A DNA stretch of 64,000 bases. Source: Alkalihalobacillus sp. AL-G (lineage in GTDB: Bacteria > Bacillota > Bacilli > Bacillales > Fictibacillaceae). The translations under genes were made by a program, and so were the position numbers. The DNA lies in assembly GCF_030643805.1 (NCBI RefSeq), contig NZ_CP094656.1:992001-1056000 (forward strand), given 5' to 3'. The notes under the pieces were generated by a model. It was not told the origin of the DNA, ran no database searches, and saw only the letters and a program-made list of their open reading frames with translations. Below are positions 13,509 through 18,292 of the stretch, in pieces (the stretch's first letter is position 1; each line of letters opens with the position of its first letter).

Positions 13509-14507
13509 TTAACTTTTCGACGTTTGTAAAGTTTGTGATACGTCTTCTTCTTTATCGGGGTTGAACATTTCTGCGATTCTATCAACGAGTCCAAGGGTTA
13601 GAAGGCCATTTCCTTCACCTTGTTTTGTAAAACCAATCGGGGTTGTCCGCTTGATCAATTGAGCATAAATCTCTACTTCTGAAAACGATCGACCAAATTC
13701 TGATTTAGACAAATTAATCAATAATGCTAGTGCGCCTGAGACATGAGGTGTAGCCATTGATGTCCCAGTTAGACGAGCATATCGGTTTTCAGGAAACGTA
13801 GACAAGATCTTTACTCCCGGAGCCACGAGATCAATTTCAGCATTCGTATTCGTGAATTCAGTGAGGTTGCGTTGGAAATCAACCGCGCCAACCTGAATCA
13901 CCTCATTATAGGCGCCAGGGTAGGAAAACTCGTCCGTATTTTCACAATCGTCACCTTCGTTACCAGCAGCGCAAACGACTGAAACGTTGTGGTTGACCGC
14001 GTATTTTATTACCTCATGAAGCTCAGGAACATCTTGTGGTCCCCCGAGTGACATGGAAATCACCCGGACTTTTTCACCATTTGGTCCTTCCCAATCAACA
14101 GCGTATTGAATTGCCTTGATGATCCACTCAATTTTGCCACTTCCTTCATGTGTGAGGACCTTTAAAATTAAGAGATTTGCTTCCGGTGCAACACCGACGA
14201 CACCATTTCCAGTACCAGAAGCAGCAACAGTTCCAGCTACATGTGTACCATGACCATTATTATCTGAGAAATTTGATGCATCACCACCAAAATCAGTTGT
14301 GAAATTCCTGCCGCTGATAATTCGTTCTCTTAAATCGGGGTGGTCGGTTTGGCAGCCAGTATCGATGACAGCGACAACATTACCTTTACCTTTTTTAGAT
14401 CGATCCCACAAGGATGGAGCATCAATCATCTCAACGCCATCAGGAATGTTTGACAATTCTTCGATGATTTCTTCCACTTGGTACGGGACAAGACGAACAT
14501 CACTCAT
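13509..14507 (-). CDS. isp: Intracellular subtilisin-like serine protease
   Basis: A 332-residue S8 protease with no signal peptide. The triad is D49 (VAVIDTGC), H86 ([10 protein letters not shown]) and S250 (GTSMATPH), with oxyanion N183 (AAGNEG). The N-terminus [10 protein letters not shown] matches the short inhibitory extension (LIPY/F motif) of intracellular subtilisins, which is removed on activation. I start at ATG 14507 (AAGGAGGATTATT upstream). Family knowledge: Isp acts in the cytoplasm in late growth and sporulation. It is probably monocistronic. Confidence 0.92.
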
Positions 14508-14591
14508 AATAATCCTCCTTCGATTTAATAGAATCCAAGAAAAATAAAGCGTCATAATCCCAGTGAAGGTACTATACCACATTTCAGACAT

Positions 14592-14934: not shown

Positions 14935-15072
14935 TCAGCTGACCCGCCTTACTTCATCTTTGTGAACGAGTTGGATTTTGTAATCACCTTTTAACTCAAG
15001 AAAACCCGTATCGTAAATCCAAATCACGGTGTAGGTCTTCCCATTATAGATTACTATATCTCCTTTATGCAC
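14935..15072 (-). CDS. Small hypothetical protein, 45 aa
   Basis: GTG 15072 is preceded by AAAAGGAGG and opens a 45-residue basic protein containing GDIVIYNGKTYTVIWIY, with beta-rich composition suggesting an SH3-like or KOW-like mini-domain. A longer reading from 15135 lacks a ribosome binding site. It lies 62 bases downstream of the TPR regulator on the same strand and may be cotranscribed with it. Function unknown. Confidence 0.55.
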   Translation of the reverse strand: MHKGDIVIYNGKTYTVIWIYDTGFLELKGDYKIQLVHKDEVRRVS

Positions 15073-15134
15073 AAGGCGAATCCTCCTTTTCCTTAATCGA
15101 TTAGGAAGGTAAATCGTCATTCTTGCATAAAACA

Positions 15135-16466
15135 CTATTCAGTTACAGGAAGTTCAGTACTGATCAGAGCAATTTCCTTTTCCAACAAACGTTGATTCGC
15201 ACTAAAAAGATTTTGGAGCGCCATAGTCAAATCATTTAGTTTTTCATAACAAATGGCTAGTTCTGTTTTTACAAGGGAAGTCCACGGATCTTCATTGAGT
15301 AATTGAAATACATGATCCGCTTTTTTGAGGTTGGTAAGTGCCTCCTCATGCGAACCACGTTTTATGTTGACTTTACCGAGTACATAATGACACTGAGCAA
15401 AGACGTGTGAATTGCTTGCAGCTAGCCTTAAGCCATTGTTTGCATATTGTTCGGCCTGATCTAAATCGTCTGTATAAAGTGAAGTGAGTGCAAGTTCATA
15501 ATAGCTGTTGGTCGCAAGGTCGCGAAAATGATATTTGTTTGCTTTCTCTAAGCTATCATTCAAGTAATAAAACGATTCTTCAACACTTCCATGTTTTCGT
15601 TTCAATATTCCCATGTTTATTTGGGAACCGATATATTTTCTAGGCTCTTCTTCAAGTTTCAAATAATCAAGGGCAACCATGCTAGATAGAATTCCCTCTG
15701 CGTATTTTTTCATATACAGCTCGGCAAGTCCCTTCAGCATGTAAAAGTGACCATTGGAATACGAAACCTGATTGGCCTCCATAATTTCAATGGCCTTATG
15801 AATAACATCAAGCCCCTTTTGGAACTCCTTCACACGACAATAGCAAAGTGCCAAGTTATACAATATTTTGAACTGAAGCAGACATTCTATATCTACATAG
15901 CGTGAATTGATGAGGGCTGAAGCGTTTAATGCCGATTCTATTCCTCTTTTATAATCTTTTAATTTCCGGTTAGCAAGTGTTATGTAGTAATAGACTTCGA
16001 TGATTTCTTTTGTTTCCGTTGATGGGAGATAGGAGAGTGCCTCATTAAAGTGGTATAACGCTTTTTCATCTTGATTAAGCTTTTCATAGATTTGCCCGAG
16101 TAACCGATGCGCTAGCCATTTTTCAGGAAAAGGAACGGTTCGAATCTTAATAAGATCCTTTAGACGGGTTTTAGCTTCTACATATTTTTCAACCTTGAAA
16201 AGTGTCGTACAAATATTAAGGCCATTCTTTATTTCCTCGTAGGTGACTGTTTTTCCAGAGATGTGTTTTTTTTCTCCAAGTAAATCTCCGACTGAGACTC
16301 CAAGTTTGCTAGATAAATATTCGATTGTTCGGAGGGAGGGTGTGGTGAGATCTCTTTCAATAAGGCTTAACATAGCTCGACTTAGTTGATCCCCGGCTAA
16401 ATCCCCCTGGGTGAGCCCCAAATCTTTTCGTAAAACTTTTATTCGTTTACCAACTGAACTTTCCAA
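15135..16466 (-). CDS. HTH-TPR (RNPP-like) peptide-sensing transcription regulator
   Basis: 443 residues. Residues about 5-65 are an XRE helix-turn-helix (IKVLRKDLGLTQGDLA, LSRAMLSLIERDLTTPSLRTIEYLSSKLGV). The remainder is a series of TPR helices (for example ALYHFNEALSYL, YNLALCYCRVKEFQKGLDVIHKAIEI, LGKVNIKRGSHEEALTNLKKA). This is the architecture of RNPP receptors such as PlcR and NprR, which bind short imported peptides in the TPR groove. TTG 16466 follows AGGGAGGCG. The divergent neighbour at 16633 encodes a plausible peptide precursor. Peptide sensing is inferred from architecture and context. Confidence 0.8.
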   Translation of the reverse strand: MESSVGKRIKVLRKDLGLTQGDLAGDQLSRAMLSLIERDLTTPSLRTIEYLSSKLGVSVGDLLGEKKHISGKTVTYEEIKNGLNICTTLFKVEKYVEAKTRLKDLIKIRTVPFPEKWLAHRLLGQIYEKLNQDEKALYHFNEALSYLPSTETKEIIEVYYYITLANRKLKDYKRGIESALNASALINSRYVDIECLLQFKILYNLALCYCRVKEFQKGLDVIHKAIEIMEANQVSYSNGHFYMLKGLAELYMKKYAEGILSSMVALDYLKLEEEPRKYIGSQINMGILKRKHGSVEESFYYLNDSLEKANKYHFRDLATNSYYELALTSLYTDDLDQAEQYANNGLRLAASNSHVFAQCHYVLGKVNIKRGSHEEALTNLKKADHVFQLLNEDPWTSLVKTELAICYEKLNDLTMALQNLFSANQRLLEKEIALISTELPVTE

Positions 16467-16514
16467 TTCTTATCGCCTCCCTAACTTATTTTACCACAAA
16501 ATTATTCGAGATGT

Positions 16515-16595
16515 TAAAATATTTAAACTATTTTTCAAAATAAAATATTTTATTCAAAAAAGTTGTTGACAAACCCATGAGTGTAATCTTAGTAT
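16515..16595 (+). promoter_or_regulatory. Promoter of the peptide-precursor gene with palindromic operator candidates
   Basis: TTGACA at 16566 and TAGTAT at 16590 with an 18-base spacer form a strong sigma-A promoter. Twelve bases upstream lies a perfect 16-bp palindrome, AATAAAATATTTTATT (16539-16554). A related TTAAAATATTTAA sits at 16514-16526. Two like palindromes between a TPR regulator and its divergent partner are candidate binding sites. Confidence 0.6.
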
Positions 16596-16632
16596 AAAAT
16601 TGTAAAAAAATGAATGAAAATAGGAGGTATTT

Positions 16633-16998
16633 ATGTCAAAACCTGCAAAATCTACGTTCTTTTTGGTTGGTGGTGTCATTTTAGGTCTAGTGTTCCTGTT
16701 ATTCGTACAAGCCTATGAACTACCACAAAACAGTGGTCATTTGTTTGCTGAAAGTTTAGTAGACTCAGACCTGGCATGGCCAGGTGACCCGGATCCAGAA
16801 GATGATCCCGTATGGCCGGACTCCCCAGCACTTGTAAGTACAGAAGACCCGGTATGGCCAGATAGCCCAGATCCAGAAGATGATCCCGTATGGCCGGACT
16901 CCCCAGCACTCGTAAGCACAGAAGACCCGGTATGGCCAGATAGCCCGGATCCAGAAGATGATCCCGTATGGCCGGACTCCCCAGCATCAAATGTATAA
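16633..16998 (+). CDS. Membrane-targeted repeat-peptide precursor (candidate pheromone)
   Basis: 121 residues. A short basic N-terminus (MSKPAKS) is followed by one hydrophobic segment (about residues 9-27, FFLVGGVILGLVFLLFVQA), then an acidic, Pro/Trp-rich tail. The tail holds five exact copies of DPVWPDSP and one degenerate copy (DLAWPGDP), joined by DPED or ALVSTE linkers. ATG follows AGGAGGTATTT. The 78-bp repeats differ only at synonymous positions, and the two motif copies within one repeat use different codons for the same eight residues, so selection is on the peptide. I know no named family. Its place opposite an RNPP-like regulator suggests a secreted, processed signal. A cell-surface repeat protein is the alternative. 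Confidence 0.75.
   Translation: MSKPAKSTFFLVGGVILGLVFLLFVQAYELPQNSGHLFAESLVDSDLAWPGDPDPEDDPVWPDSPALVSTEDPVWPDSPDPEDDPVWPDSPALVSTEDPVWPDSPDPEDDPVWPDSPASNV
16792..16988 (+). repeat. 78-bp in-frame tandem repeat (2.5 copies)
   Basis: Units start at 16792, 16870 and 16948 (partial). The first two differ at three positions (CTT/CTC, AGT/AGC, CCA/CCG), all synonymous. Each full unit encodes 26 residues with two DPVWPDSP motifs. Confidence 0.95.
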
Positions 16999-17005
16999 GC
17001 ATGAA

Positions 17006-18292
17006 TTAAACACTCGTTTTTCCTTTAGCAGAAACAACCTCAATTTTAGAAGGTAAAAGTTCTTCTTTTCTCCACAACCACTTTTCAAGTATTGCGCCAA
17101 TTATTCCAATGCCACCAACGACGAAACCAACTGTTTGTATCACTTGGACAGCCCCAAAGGTATGAACTAGAATTCCACCGGTTACAGGTGCGATGATAAA
17201 TACAGCACTCATCACCGAGTTAGTGATTCCGAATACGCGGCCAACCATTTCCTTTGGGGACTCTTTTTGAAGTGCGAAATTATATGAAACCATCCAAATT
17301 CCGTTGCCGAACCCTACAATCAGGGCAAAGAAAATAGGGATGAGTAATGACATCTCCTCAGTGACGAACGCTACTCCCGCAAAGCCAAAACCAATCAAGC
17401 TCATTCCACCTCCAATTGCCCAACCATAGCGAATCTCTTTAAAGCGATTCATCCATGTTATCGTAATGATCGACCCGACTCCTGTCGTACTTAATAACAA
17501 ACCAAACACCATTGGATCCTTCATGTTAATCGATCGCAGAAGAACGGGGAACTGAAAATCGACGAGCTGAATGCACATAATTCCAATCAAGGAAAAAAGA
17601 ATGCTATTGAATATCACCCGAGTCTTAAGGACAAAAGCCCAACCTTCTTTCCAGGAATCTTTAAAGCTCAGTTTTTCTGTTCCTTGTTCATTTTTTGGAG
17701 CATTTGAATTCTCTTTGATTTTTCGAAGTGTTAGTAAAATAATGCCCGATATTAGGCTGCTGAAGGCATTAATAAGGATGCAAATCTTTGGGGATAGCAC
17801 GGTTAAAATTAAAGCCCCCAGGAGAGGTCCGACAATTTTTCCACTATTGTTCACAATCTGGTTATAAGAAGTGGCTTTCAATAATTGATCTTCAGGAACG
17901 ATATGTCGCGTAAGAGCTTGTTCAGCTGGCGTACTGATCAATCCAAGCGATGAACGTATAAACAAAATTGGCAGTACCCAATAGATATGATCGGCGAATA
18001 CGAGAAAAATCGTTAAAACGGCACTACTCCAATCCGAAATAATCATCAGGTTCACTTTTTTCGAACGATCAGCAAGCACACCTGCAAATGAGCCAAATAA
18101 GATACCTGGTAACGCAAAACAAACTGGAATTAATCCGATCAATATCGGATCCGAATTCCAGCCGTAAGCGACAAGTATTGAAATCGCAAGCATATCAAAC
18201 CAATCGCCATAAACTGAAATGGCATATGCAAGGAACATTTTTGTAAACGACTTATTTTTGAAAAGGGGGGTCGTACTAACTGTTTTATCCAT
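17006..18292 (-). CDS. MFS permease
   Basis: A 428-residue, 12-segment major facilitator of the MFS_3/macrolide-efflux branch (FKNKSFTKMFLAYAISVYGDWFDMLAIS; FGSFAGVLADRSKK at the first cytoplasmic loop). ATG follows GGAGGATTACTTT. It converges on the peptide-precursor gene with only seven bases between stops. Substrate unknown. Export of the neighbouring peptide is conceivable but has no direct support. Confidence 0.85.
   Translation of the reverse strand: MDKTVSTTPLFKNKSFTKMFLAYAISVYGDWFDMLAISILVAYGWNSDPILIGLIPVCFALPGILFGSFAGVLADRSKKVNLMIISDWSSAVLTIFLVFADHIYWVLPILFIRSSLGLISTPAEQALTRHIVPEDQLLKATSYNQIVNNSGKIVGPLLGALILTVLSPKICILINAFSSLISGIILLTLRKIKENSNAPKNEQGTEKLSFKDSWKEGWAFVLKTRVIFNSILFSLIGIMCIQLVDFQFPVLLRSINMKDPMVFGLLLSTTGVGSIITITWMNRFKEIRYGWAIGGGMSLIGFGFAGVAFVTEEMSLLIPIFFALIVGFGNGIWMVSYNFALQKESPKEMVGRVFGITNSVMSAVFIIAPVTGGILVHTFGAVQVIQTVGFVVGGIGIIGAILEKWLWRKEELLPSKIEVVSAKGKTSV

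Follow-up and report, generated by a model that had tools for sequence, protein, structure and literature searches.

What is encoded by two divergent genes of Alkalihalobacillus sp. AL-G, one for a helix-turn-helix (HTH) regulator and the other for a small protein that repeats a single short motif six times behind a hydrophobic leader? Both lie in the window, a 64,000-nt stretch corresponding to positions 992001–1056000 of the single-contig, 4.16-Mb genome (code G000). An earlier note had proposed a pheromone precursor with several copies, transcribed divergently from its receptor, and this proposal is supported by the presence of the pair throughout the genus, by a conserved core in the repeats and by the profile relation of the regulator to PlcR and NprR. 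Judged from sequence, the best explanation is a chromosomal RRNPP-type peptide pheromone (quorum-sensing) pair, with a probability of roughly 85%.

The precursor gene (16633–16998, forward strand) encodes 121 aa, has AGGAGG directly 5' of its ATG start, and is separated from the divergent regulator gene by 166 nt. Its product has no match in Pfam or NCBIfam. Rereading of the ORF and its coordinates agreed with the features originally noted: an N-terminal hydrophobic segment, five exact copies of DPVWPDSP (24 nt each, starting at 16804, 16846, 16882, 16924, and 16960) and one decayed copy, DLAWPGDP (24 nt, starting at 16768), all on the forward strand in a motif region spanning 16768–16983. The leader was called hydrophobic by hydropathy alone (the value shown, 3.1, is for the Pseudalkalibacillus decolorationis orthologue), and the spacers between the motifs are acidic. 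Three sites, all synonymous, distinguish the two full 78-bp units, and the 78-nt repeat family was also recovered independently of the ORF reading. Within a unit, the reported difference of six bases in 24 holds for motif copies 1 and 2; copies 3 and 4 differ at seven, and the same eight residues are encoded despite these 6–7 differing bases. These synonymous changes had been taken as evidence of selection on the peptide. Because near-identical 78-bp units alone could reflect recent duplication, changes within the gene are the weaker basis for that claim, and the comparison between species provides the stronger one. At the DNA level, paired DP[IVM]WP copies 10–40 nt apart occur in 4 of 397 genomes of the order and the backwards-pattern control gave 0; the motif pairing exceeds chance.

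The regulator gene (15135–16466, reverse strand, TTG start) encodes 443 aa and is a likely peptide receptor. Its description as an XRE HTH plus TPR protein was confirmed by Pfam (HTH_3, 27.1 bits against a cut-off of 23; TPR_12, 73.6 bits against 30.1) and by an AF2 model built from an 11-row alignment (pLDDT 87.1, pTM 0.73), whose DSSP listing gave nine helix pairs after the HTH. RNPP_C reached 18.8 bits, under its cut-off of 26.5. In searches of the PDB, a profile of ten regulators matched PlcR (2qfc, residues 3–276, E 1.6e-16) across both domains and NprR (4gpk, 73–416, E 1.9e-14) across the TPRs only, with designed and eukaryotic TPR proteins scoring above both. Another regulator profile matched RapF more weakly (4.5e-8), and the window regulator as a single query returned, at E below 1e-4, only HTH proteins, ComR, and 5jub. 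Of the top 50 Foldseek matches for the model, most were generic TPR proteins, and Rap_pLS20 ranked 42nd; as such generic matches dominate, fold search was rejected as proof of family. By profile, the regulator appears to be related to PlcR and NprR. It has most of the testable RRNPP sequence and architecture features: the RRNPPA traits present are an N-terminal HTH, nine TPR pairs in 443 aa (the range being five to nine pairs and 250–500 aa) and an adjacent precursor gene.

A single groove residue was also compared, in an alignment that held the pLS20 TPR protein, which we take to be Rap_pLS20, and not RapF. The column of Asn284 is Asn in 44 of the 46 members of the receptor class delimited below, in 19/20 NprR-like controls, and in the pLS20 protein (N219); in 20 PlcR-like controls it is mostly Lys or Arg, not Asn. 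One peptide-binding Asn is described as common to RNPP receptors in the part of PMC3601957 consulted (N227 of RapF), and N219 is not named in the consulted part of PMC7430634. Asn284 may be the equivalent of the RNPP peptide-anchoring Asn.

Conservation of the pair was examined in eight genomes of the genus, the window genome and seven others. The regulator is present in all eight (orthologues 59–75% identical in the seven others), each time with a divergent leader ORF 139–167 nt upstream. Seven of the eight carry an intact precursor with 3–11 motif units: 6 in the window (one decayed), 11 in G001, 8 in G003, 5 in both G006 and G007, and 3 in both G005 and G002. In G004 a stop at codon 38 interrupts the frame, and a single motif copy lies past it. 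Besides the 121 aa of the window, precursor lengths are 182 aa in P. decolorationis, 139 aa in one other, and 79–109 aa or less in the rest. The regular occurrence of the repeat protein without the regulator had been named beforehand as evidence against a signalling pair; when the precursor was used as a query, it matched 8 of 60 relatives, and all eight matches divergently adjoin a class regulator. The 41 motif copies of the seven intact orthologues have D in 41, P in 40, V in 32 (I in 8, A in 1), W in 41, P in 41, and D in 40; S (24) and P (28) are the commonest residues of the next two columns and the remaining columns vary. The octapeptide DPVWPDSP, put forward earlier as the conserved unit, did not hold up in this comparison, with only D-P-[VI]-W-P-D near-constant across the genus.

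To find more distant members, the ten-regulator profile was searched against 397 genomes of the order. Thirty-seven matches fell below E 1e-60, and the next were 9e-41 and weaker. The class set of 46 combines 9 genus rows, 32 from this search (its 37 matches after removal of 3 genus rows and of 2 copies of a stretch that is duplicated in G324), and 5 from other searches. The G324 stretch, in which two class regulators face each other, occurs twice with equal match scores about 83 kb apart (G324:C17 39592–42508 and 122653–125569), and is either a large duplication or an assembly artefact. Forty controls, 20 NprR-like and 20 PlcR-like, were hand-picked from the weaker matches of the same search; the NprR-like ones score 1e-38 or weaker, against below 1e-60 for the class. 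Each locus was scanned for an ORF whose hydropathy peaks at 2.0 or more and which contains D..WP or D.{1,3}LPW, located within 650 nt divergently or 300 nt downstream; G245, control L203, and a few other loci offered less than 650 nt of upstream DNA. Such an ORF adjoins 22/46 class regulators, always in divergent layout, vs 0/20 NprR-like and 0/20 PlcR-like controls. Two precursors missed by the rule, in G346 and G288a, were found by eye, bringing the count to 24/46, and rule and eye together found no motif-bearing precursor beside the other 22. Some class regulators of this latter kind face permease-like genes (L262, ABC permeases by Pfam; L127, L128, and L152, by eye) and may be receptors that have no signal of their own. 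Of 79 named-genome loci, 38 were scanned for precursors, the remainder being mostly HTH-only or actinobacterial by listing.

Rule-positive genomes belong to nine family codes (f1, f3, f15, f25, f30, f31, f40, f44, and f45), with D..WP in eight and DP[VI]WP in five (f1, f3, f15, f30, and f45); near-duplicate rows (G194/G219; G114/G346) mean that these counts overstate independence. On the receptor tree the WP label clusters, with 8 changes vs 16.4 after shuffling and 0/500 shuffles as low, a result helped by the near-copies. DP[VI]WP occurs in both halves of the tree, in which the class is not resolved as a clade separate from all controls. Distant receptors only ~20–27% identical still face tiny precursors ending in DPVWP or DPIWP, or carrying variants such as DEIWP. 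The signalling reading is strengthened because relatives keep the same core beside similar receptors. A viral origin was also considered and rejected: the ORFs beside the regulators of two relatives on viral contigs, L161 and L162 (2 of 20 inspected), lack the WP motif.

The distant precursors bear on two other readings of the repeats. They are 26–57 aa long and carry a single copy close to or at the C-terminal end, where RRNPP pheromones usually lie; they share little else with the window precursor, yet keep the core. The repeat protein could instead be an intact secreted or membrane-anchored acidic protein under a divergent regulator, with the repeat serving in binding or structure. Repeats behind a hydrophobic N-terminus are common among surface proteins, the leader, known by hydropathy, could be a membrane anchor, and the residues between the window motifs are acidic. 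One-copy precursors of 26–57 aa are, however, too small for structural repeats, and the spacers vary freely while the core stays fixed and copies range from 1 to 11, so that we regard an intact repeat protein as improbable. A second question is the extent of the mature peptide within a pheromone pair. The single-copy precursors of G385, G291, and G077 end exactly at DPVWP or DPIWP, that is, at the P of WP; most others run 2–10 residues beyond the core. This last observation and the genus copies, in which D follows the core in 40/41 cases and is itself followed by S in 24/41 and P in 28/41, would suit a longer peptide such as DPVWPDSP. Against that stand the three precursors that stop at the core, the variable residues before its D, and the orthologues without SP after the second D (G003 and others), and a longer signal seems rather unlikely. 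If the locus encodes a pheromone pair, DPVWP or DPVWPD is favoured as the mature signal, which is thus probably about five or six residues long and not an octapeptide. Variant words are also present (D-E-I/V/E-W-P, D-D-T-W-P, D-x-I-L-P-W, and D-A-L-P-W).

Further copies of the core occur on plasmids of Priestia. In all seven fetched, a class regulator faces 1–3 leader ORFs of 28–49 codons that are absent from the gene tables and end in DPVWP, DPVWPRV, or, once, DPAWP. With repeats inside the gene in one lineage and repeats of the gene in Priestia, copy number has been raised in two ways. A related regulator, 91–94% identical to Priestia megaterium plasmid proteins, lies on a contig (L029) filed under Sphingomonas sp. 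PsM26; because of this identity, that assembly is probably contaminated. No phage record matched the L029 receptor.

The earlier suggestion that the motif might covary with the TPR groove was assessed in 13 receptors of peptides with P at position 2 and 8 receptors of peptides with an acidic residue there. Twenty columns separate the two sets, three of them in a charge-fitting manner: columns 220, 250, and 251 are basic in 8/8 receptors of E/D-position-2 peptides and 0/13 of P2 peptides. This pattern hints at covariation. The number of separating columns was rejected as evidence, since a control made it meaningless: columns in common with the tree's other half numbered 1 for the group under study and 0, 2, 4, 4, and 14 for five other groups.

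The neighbours of the pair were also examined. In the window, the intracellular-subtilisin-like protease gene at 13509–14591 (reverse strand; match to the intracellular subtilisin 2x8j/2wv7, E 2e-139) is linked to the pair in 8/8 genus genomes and is a possible target; a YihY-like gene, named by eye, is linked in 7/8. A 66-aa ORF (...YNGKTYTVIW..., 14935–15135) lies just downstream of the regulator, with relatives in three other genus genomes by BLAST and in G007 by eye. No biosynthetic cluster adjoins the pair in the window. In a survey of 13 distant class members (9–14 kb each), 12 of which have a precursor, biosynthetic genes follow in the precursor's direction in 5/12: a radical SAM gene (G291), PLP and ATP-grasp enzyme genes (G398), a nucleotide-sugar dehydrogenase gene and then one for an NRPS condensation/carrier protein (G077), SDR and two KAS III genes (G288), and YcaO-TfuA (G100). 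Elsewhere, a peptide-type ABC transporter (G355) or a malate/lactate dehydrogenase (G016) lies beside the pair. Counter-cases are G025, where an integrase gene comes next and radical SAM and methyltransferase genes lie on the opposite side; G063, with a transposase gene next and a phosphopantetheinyl transferase gene on the opposite side; and G194, G324, and G005b. In 7/7 Priestia plasmids the annotation of the following gene is RCCLKC-tail radical SAM, and the two longer stretches also hold an arsinothricin-resistance N-acetyltransferase. The tiny genes of these plasmids (L243–L249) sit between the regulator and the radical-SAM gene, in an arsenical biosynthesis/resistance region; density control of a putative arsenical antibiotic is possible. 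Neighbouring biosynthetic genes are likely targets in some relatives.

An alternative raised by these neighbourhoods is that the precursor belongs to a peptide antibiotic or multi-core RiPP, with the divergent gene encoding the regulator of its cluster. Multi-core RiPPs have repeated core peptides with variable spacers, and the precursor resembles them; some class members, moreover, adjoin YcaO-TfuA, radical-SAM, or ATP-grasp genes. This is nonetheless the least probable of the alternatives, and a very improbable one: no recognised modification enzyme was found among the window neighbours read (8–24 kb), the same core stands beside unrelated enzyme sets, the precursor leaders look Sec-like, and the regulator is related to peptide-receptor families. 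For arsinothricin, the radical-SAM enzyme of its synthesis is described for Burkholderia as ArsL (PMC8552651, consulted in part).

The region between the two genes was searched for control elements. A promoter-like site of the precursor gene (16566–16595, forward strand; TTGACA, 18 nt, TAGTAT) is one of six sites in 16400–17100, where shuffled sequences gave 1.5, and its TTGACA is invariant in the eight aligned genus genomes. The regulator gene has its own promoter-like site (16488–16517, reverse strand; TTAACA, 18 nt, TAAAAT). Between the two -35 boxes lies a weak, AT-rich imperfect palindrome (16526–16567), a possible operator, and a block enclosed by the two promoter-like sites is also conserved in 8/8 genus genomes. 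The best inverted repeat of the window intergenic region has p 0.07; across 11 systems, inverted repeats upstream of -35 reach p <0.05 in two, and the right arm ends 3–4 nt before -35 in five. No second operator-like site was found in the genome, the best match outside the locus having E 0.07. On these inverted-repeat and genome-match statistics the palindrome was rejected as a proven operator and retained as weak support; its position just upstream of -35 suggests activation.

Taken as a pheromone pair, the locus would work as follows. The precursor would be made from its own promoter and, given the leader seen in its sequence, exported; extracellular proteases would cut the variable acidic spacers to release several short peptides with the conserved core D-P-[V/I]-W-P, perhaps with a further D. 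An oligopeptide permease would re-import the peptide, which, by homology, would bind the HTH-9TPR regulator in its TPR groove, where Asn284 would anchor the peptide backbone. The regulator, sitting between two promoters, would then alter transcription of the precursor gene and its targets; in the simplest case it would activate them, with positive feedback. Internal repeats would raise the dose of one signal, for which relatives use one, two, or three tiny genes. We infer density sensing as the role.

The pair was compared with known systems, using the parts of the cited papers that were available. RNPP precursors had been said to hold usually one copy. This needs correction: several-copy precursors have already been described for AimR, NprR, Rap, and PlcR, with up to six copies in PMC9765709 and up to eight in PMC11343458, and repeats were present in 17/17 oversized NprR propeptides and 3/15 oversized propeptides of PlcR systems (PMC9765709). 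As a kind, the multi-copy RRNPP precursor is already known. NprR-NprX is alike in its HTH and nine TPRs, adjacent small secreted precursor, multi-copy forms, and Asn column, but genes of the NprX type are found downstream in the same orientation (PMC9765709), where the window pair is divergent, and the peptide word differs, the WP motif being found in 0/20 NprR-like controls. Among Rap-Phr systems, Phr3T and Phr105 similarly have identical or similar pheromone copies per propeptide, cut by extracellular proteases (PMC11343458); Rap, however, lacks the HTH and has a three-helix bundle, whereas the receptor here is DNA-binding and its precursors hold up to 11 copies. PlcR-PapR, an HTH plus TPR system, is the best full-length RNPP profile match to the regulator, but PlcR has five TPRs in ~290 aa vs nine helix pairs in 443 aa, and a WP precursor was found in 0/20 PlcR-like controls. 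AloR-AloP of Paenibacillus polymyxa likewise combines an HTH-TPR receptor and a small secreted peptide encoded next to it, but aloP is just downstream of aloR (PMC7425212); this likeness is by description, not sequence. The window receptor fits the nine-TPR clan that PMC12700828 describes with QssR, NprR, and Rap.

Published propeptide screens were limited to 10–100 aa (PMC10075063) or 20–120 aa (PMC9765709) in the parts consulted. The 10–100 aa criterion delimits a search and does not describe the biology. Precursors of 121, 139, and 182 aa exceed these limits and shorter ones do not. The receptor class, its divergent layout, the D-x-x-W-P word, and a precursor of 11 copies were not found in the literature searched, figures and supplements aside, and none of the papers there that contain DPVWP, DPIWP, DEIWP, or similar words was, by its title, about bacterial signalling. 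The class may be among the 21 novel clusters of PMC10075063.

Other multi-copy precursors were encountered in different layouts. The window genome holds a second multi-copy system at 294500–300500 (L157), with a 418-aa HTH-TPR regulator and, downstream on the same strand, a 124-aa precursor of six HDDTPDL-type units; similar downstream layouts occur in G020 (L159, HDDSPKI x5) and G006 (L158, IDELPPM x4). In G147 (L156 3327–3539; L160 5319–6578) a 70-aa precursor with three DPIWPPA units has a different XRE-TPR protein upstream on the same strand, in a gene run with GTP cyclohydrolase II, FGE-like, and WD40-like (by eye) proteins.

A broader proposal, which we advance tentatively and hold to be doubtful, is that D-P-V-W-P is the shared word of an RRNPP class unnamed in the literature searched, with a nearly fixed core, three copy-number modes, and talk across genera. 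Across five Bacillales family codes the core has hardly changed (D-x-x-W-P recurs in eight) as receptor identity dropped to ~20–27%, and it is carried as up to 11 internal repeats, in tandem tiny genes, or as one terminal copy. Phr codes diverge fast, and a nearly fixed D-P-V-W-P would be the reverse. The longest multi-copy precursors would escape screens with a ceiling of 100 or 120 aa. The pair offers a short, defined peptide that could be synthesised and then tried in bacteria of soil and marine type, where the divergent promoter would serve as a built-in reporter. The findings suggest one signal in several genera and predict an inducing cue for some biosynthetic clusters; if the broader proposal is true, there would be cross-talk between genera, including induction of the plasmid-borne arsenical clusters of Priestia by the peptides of other species.
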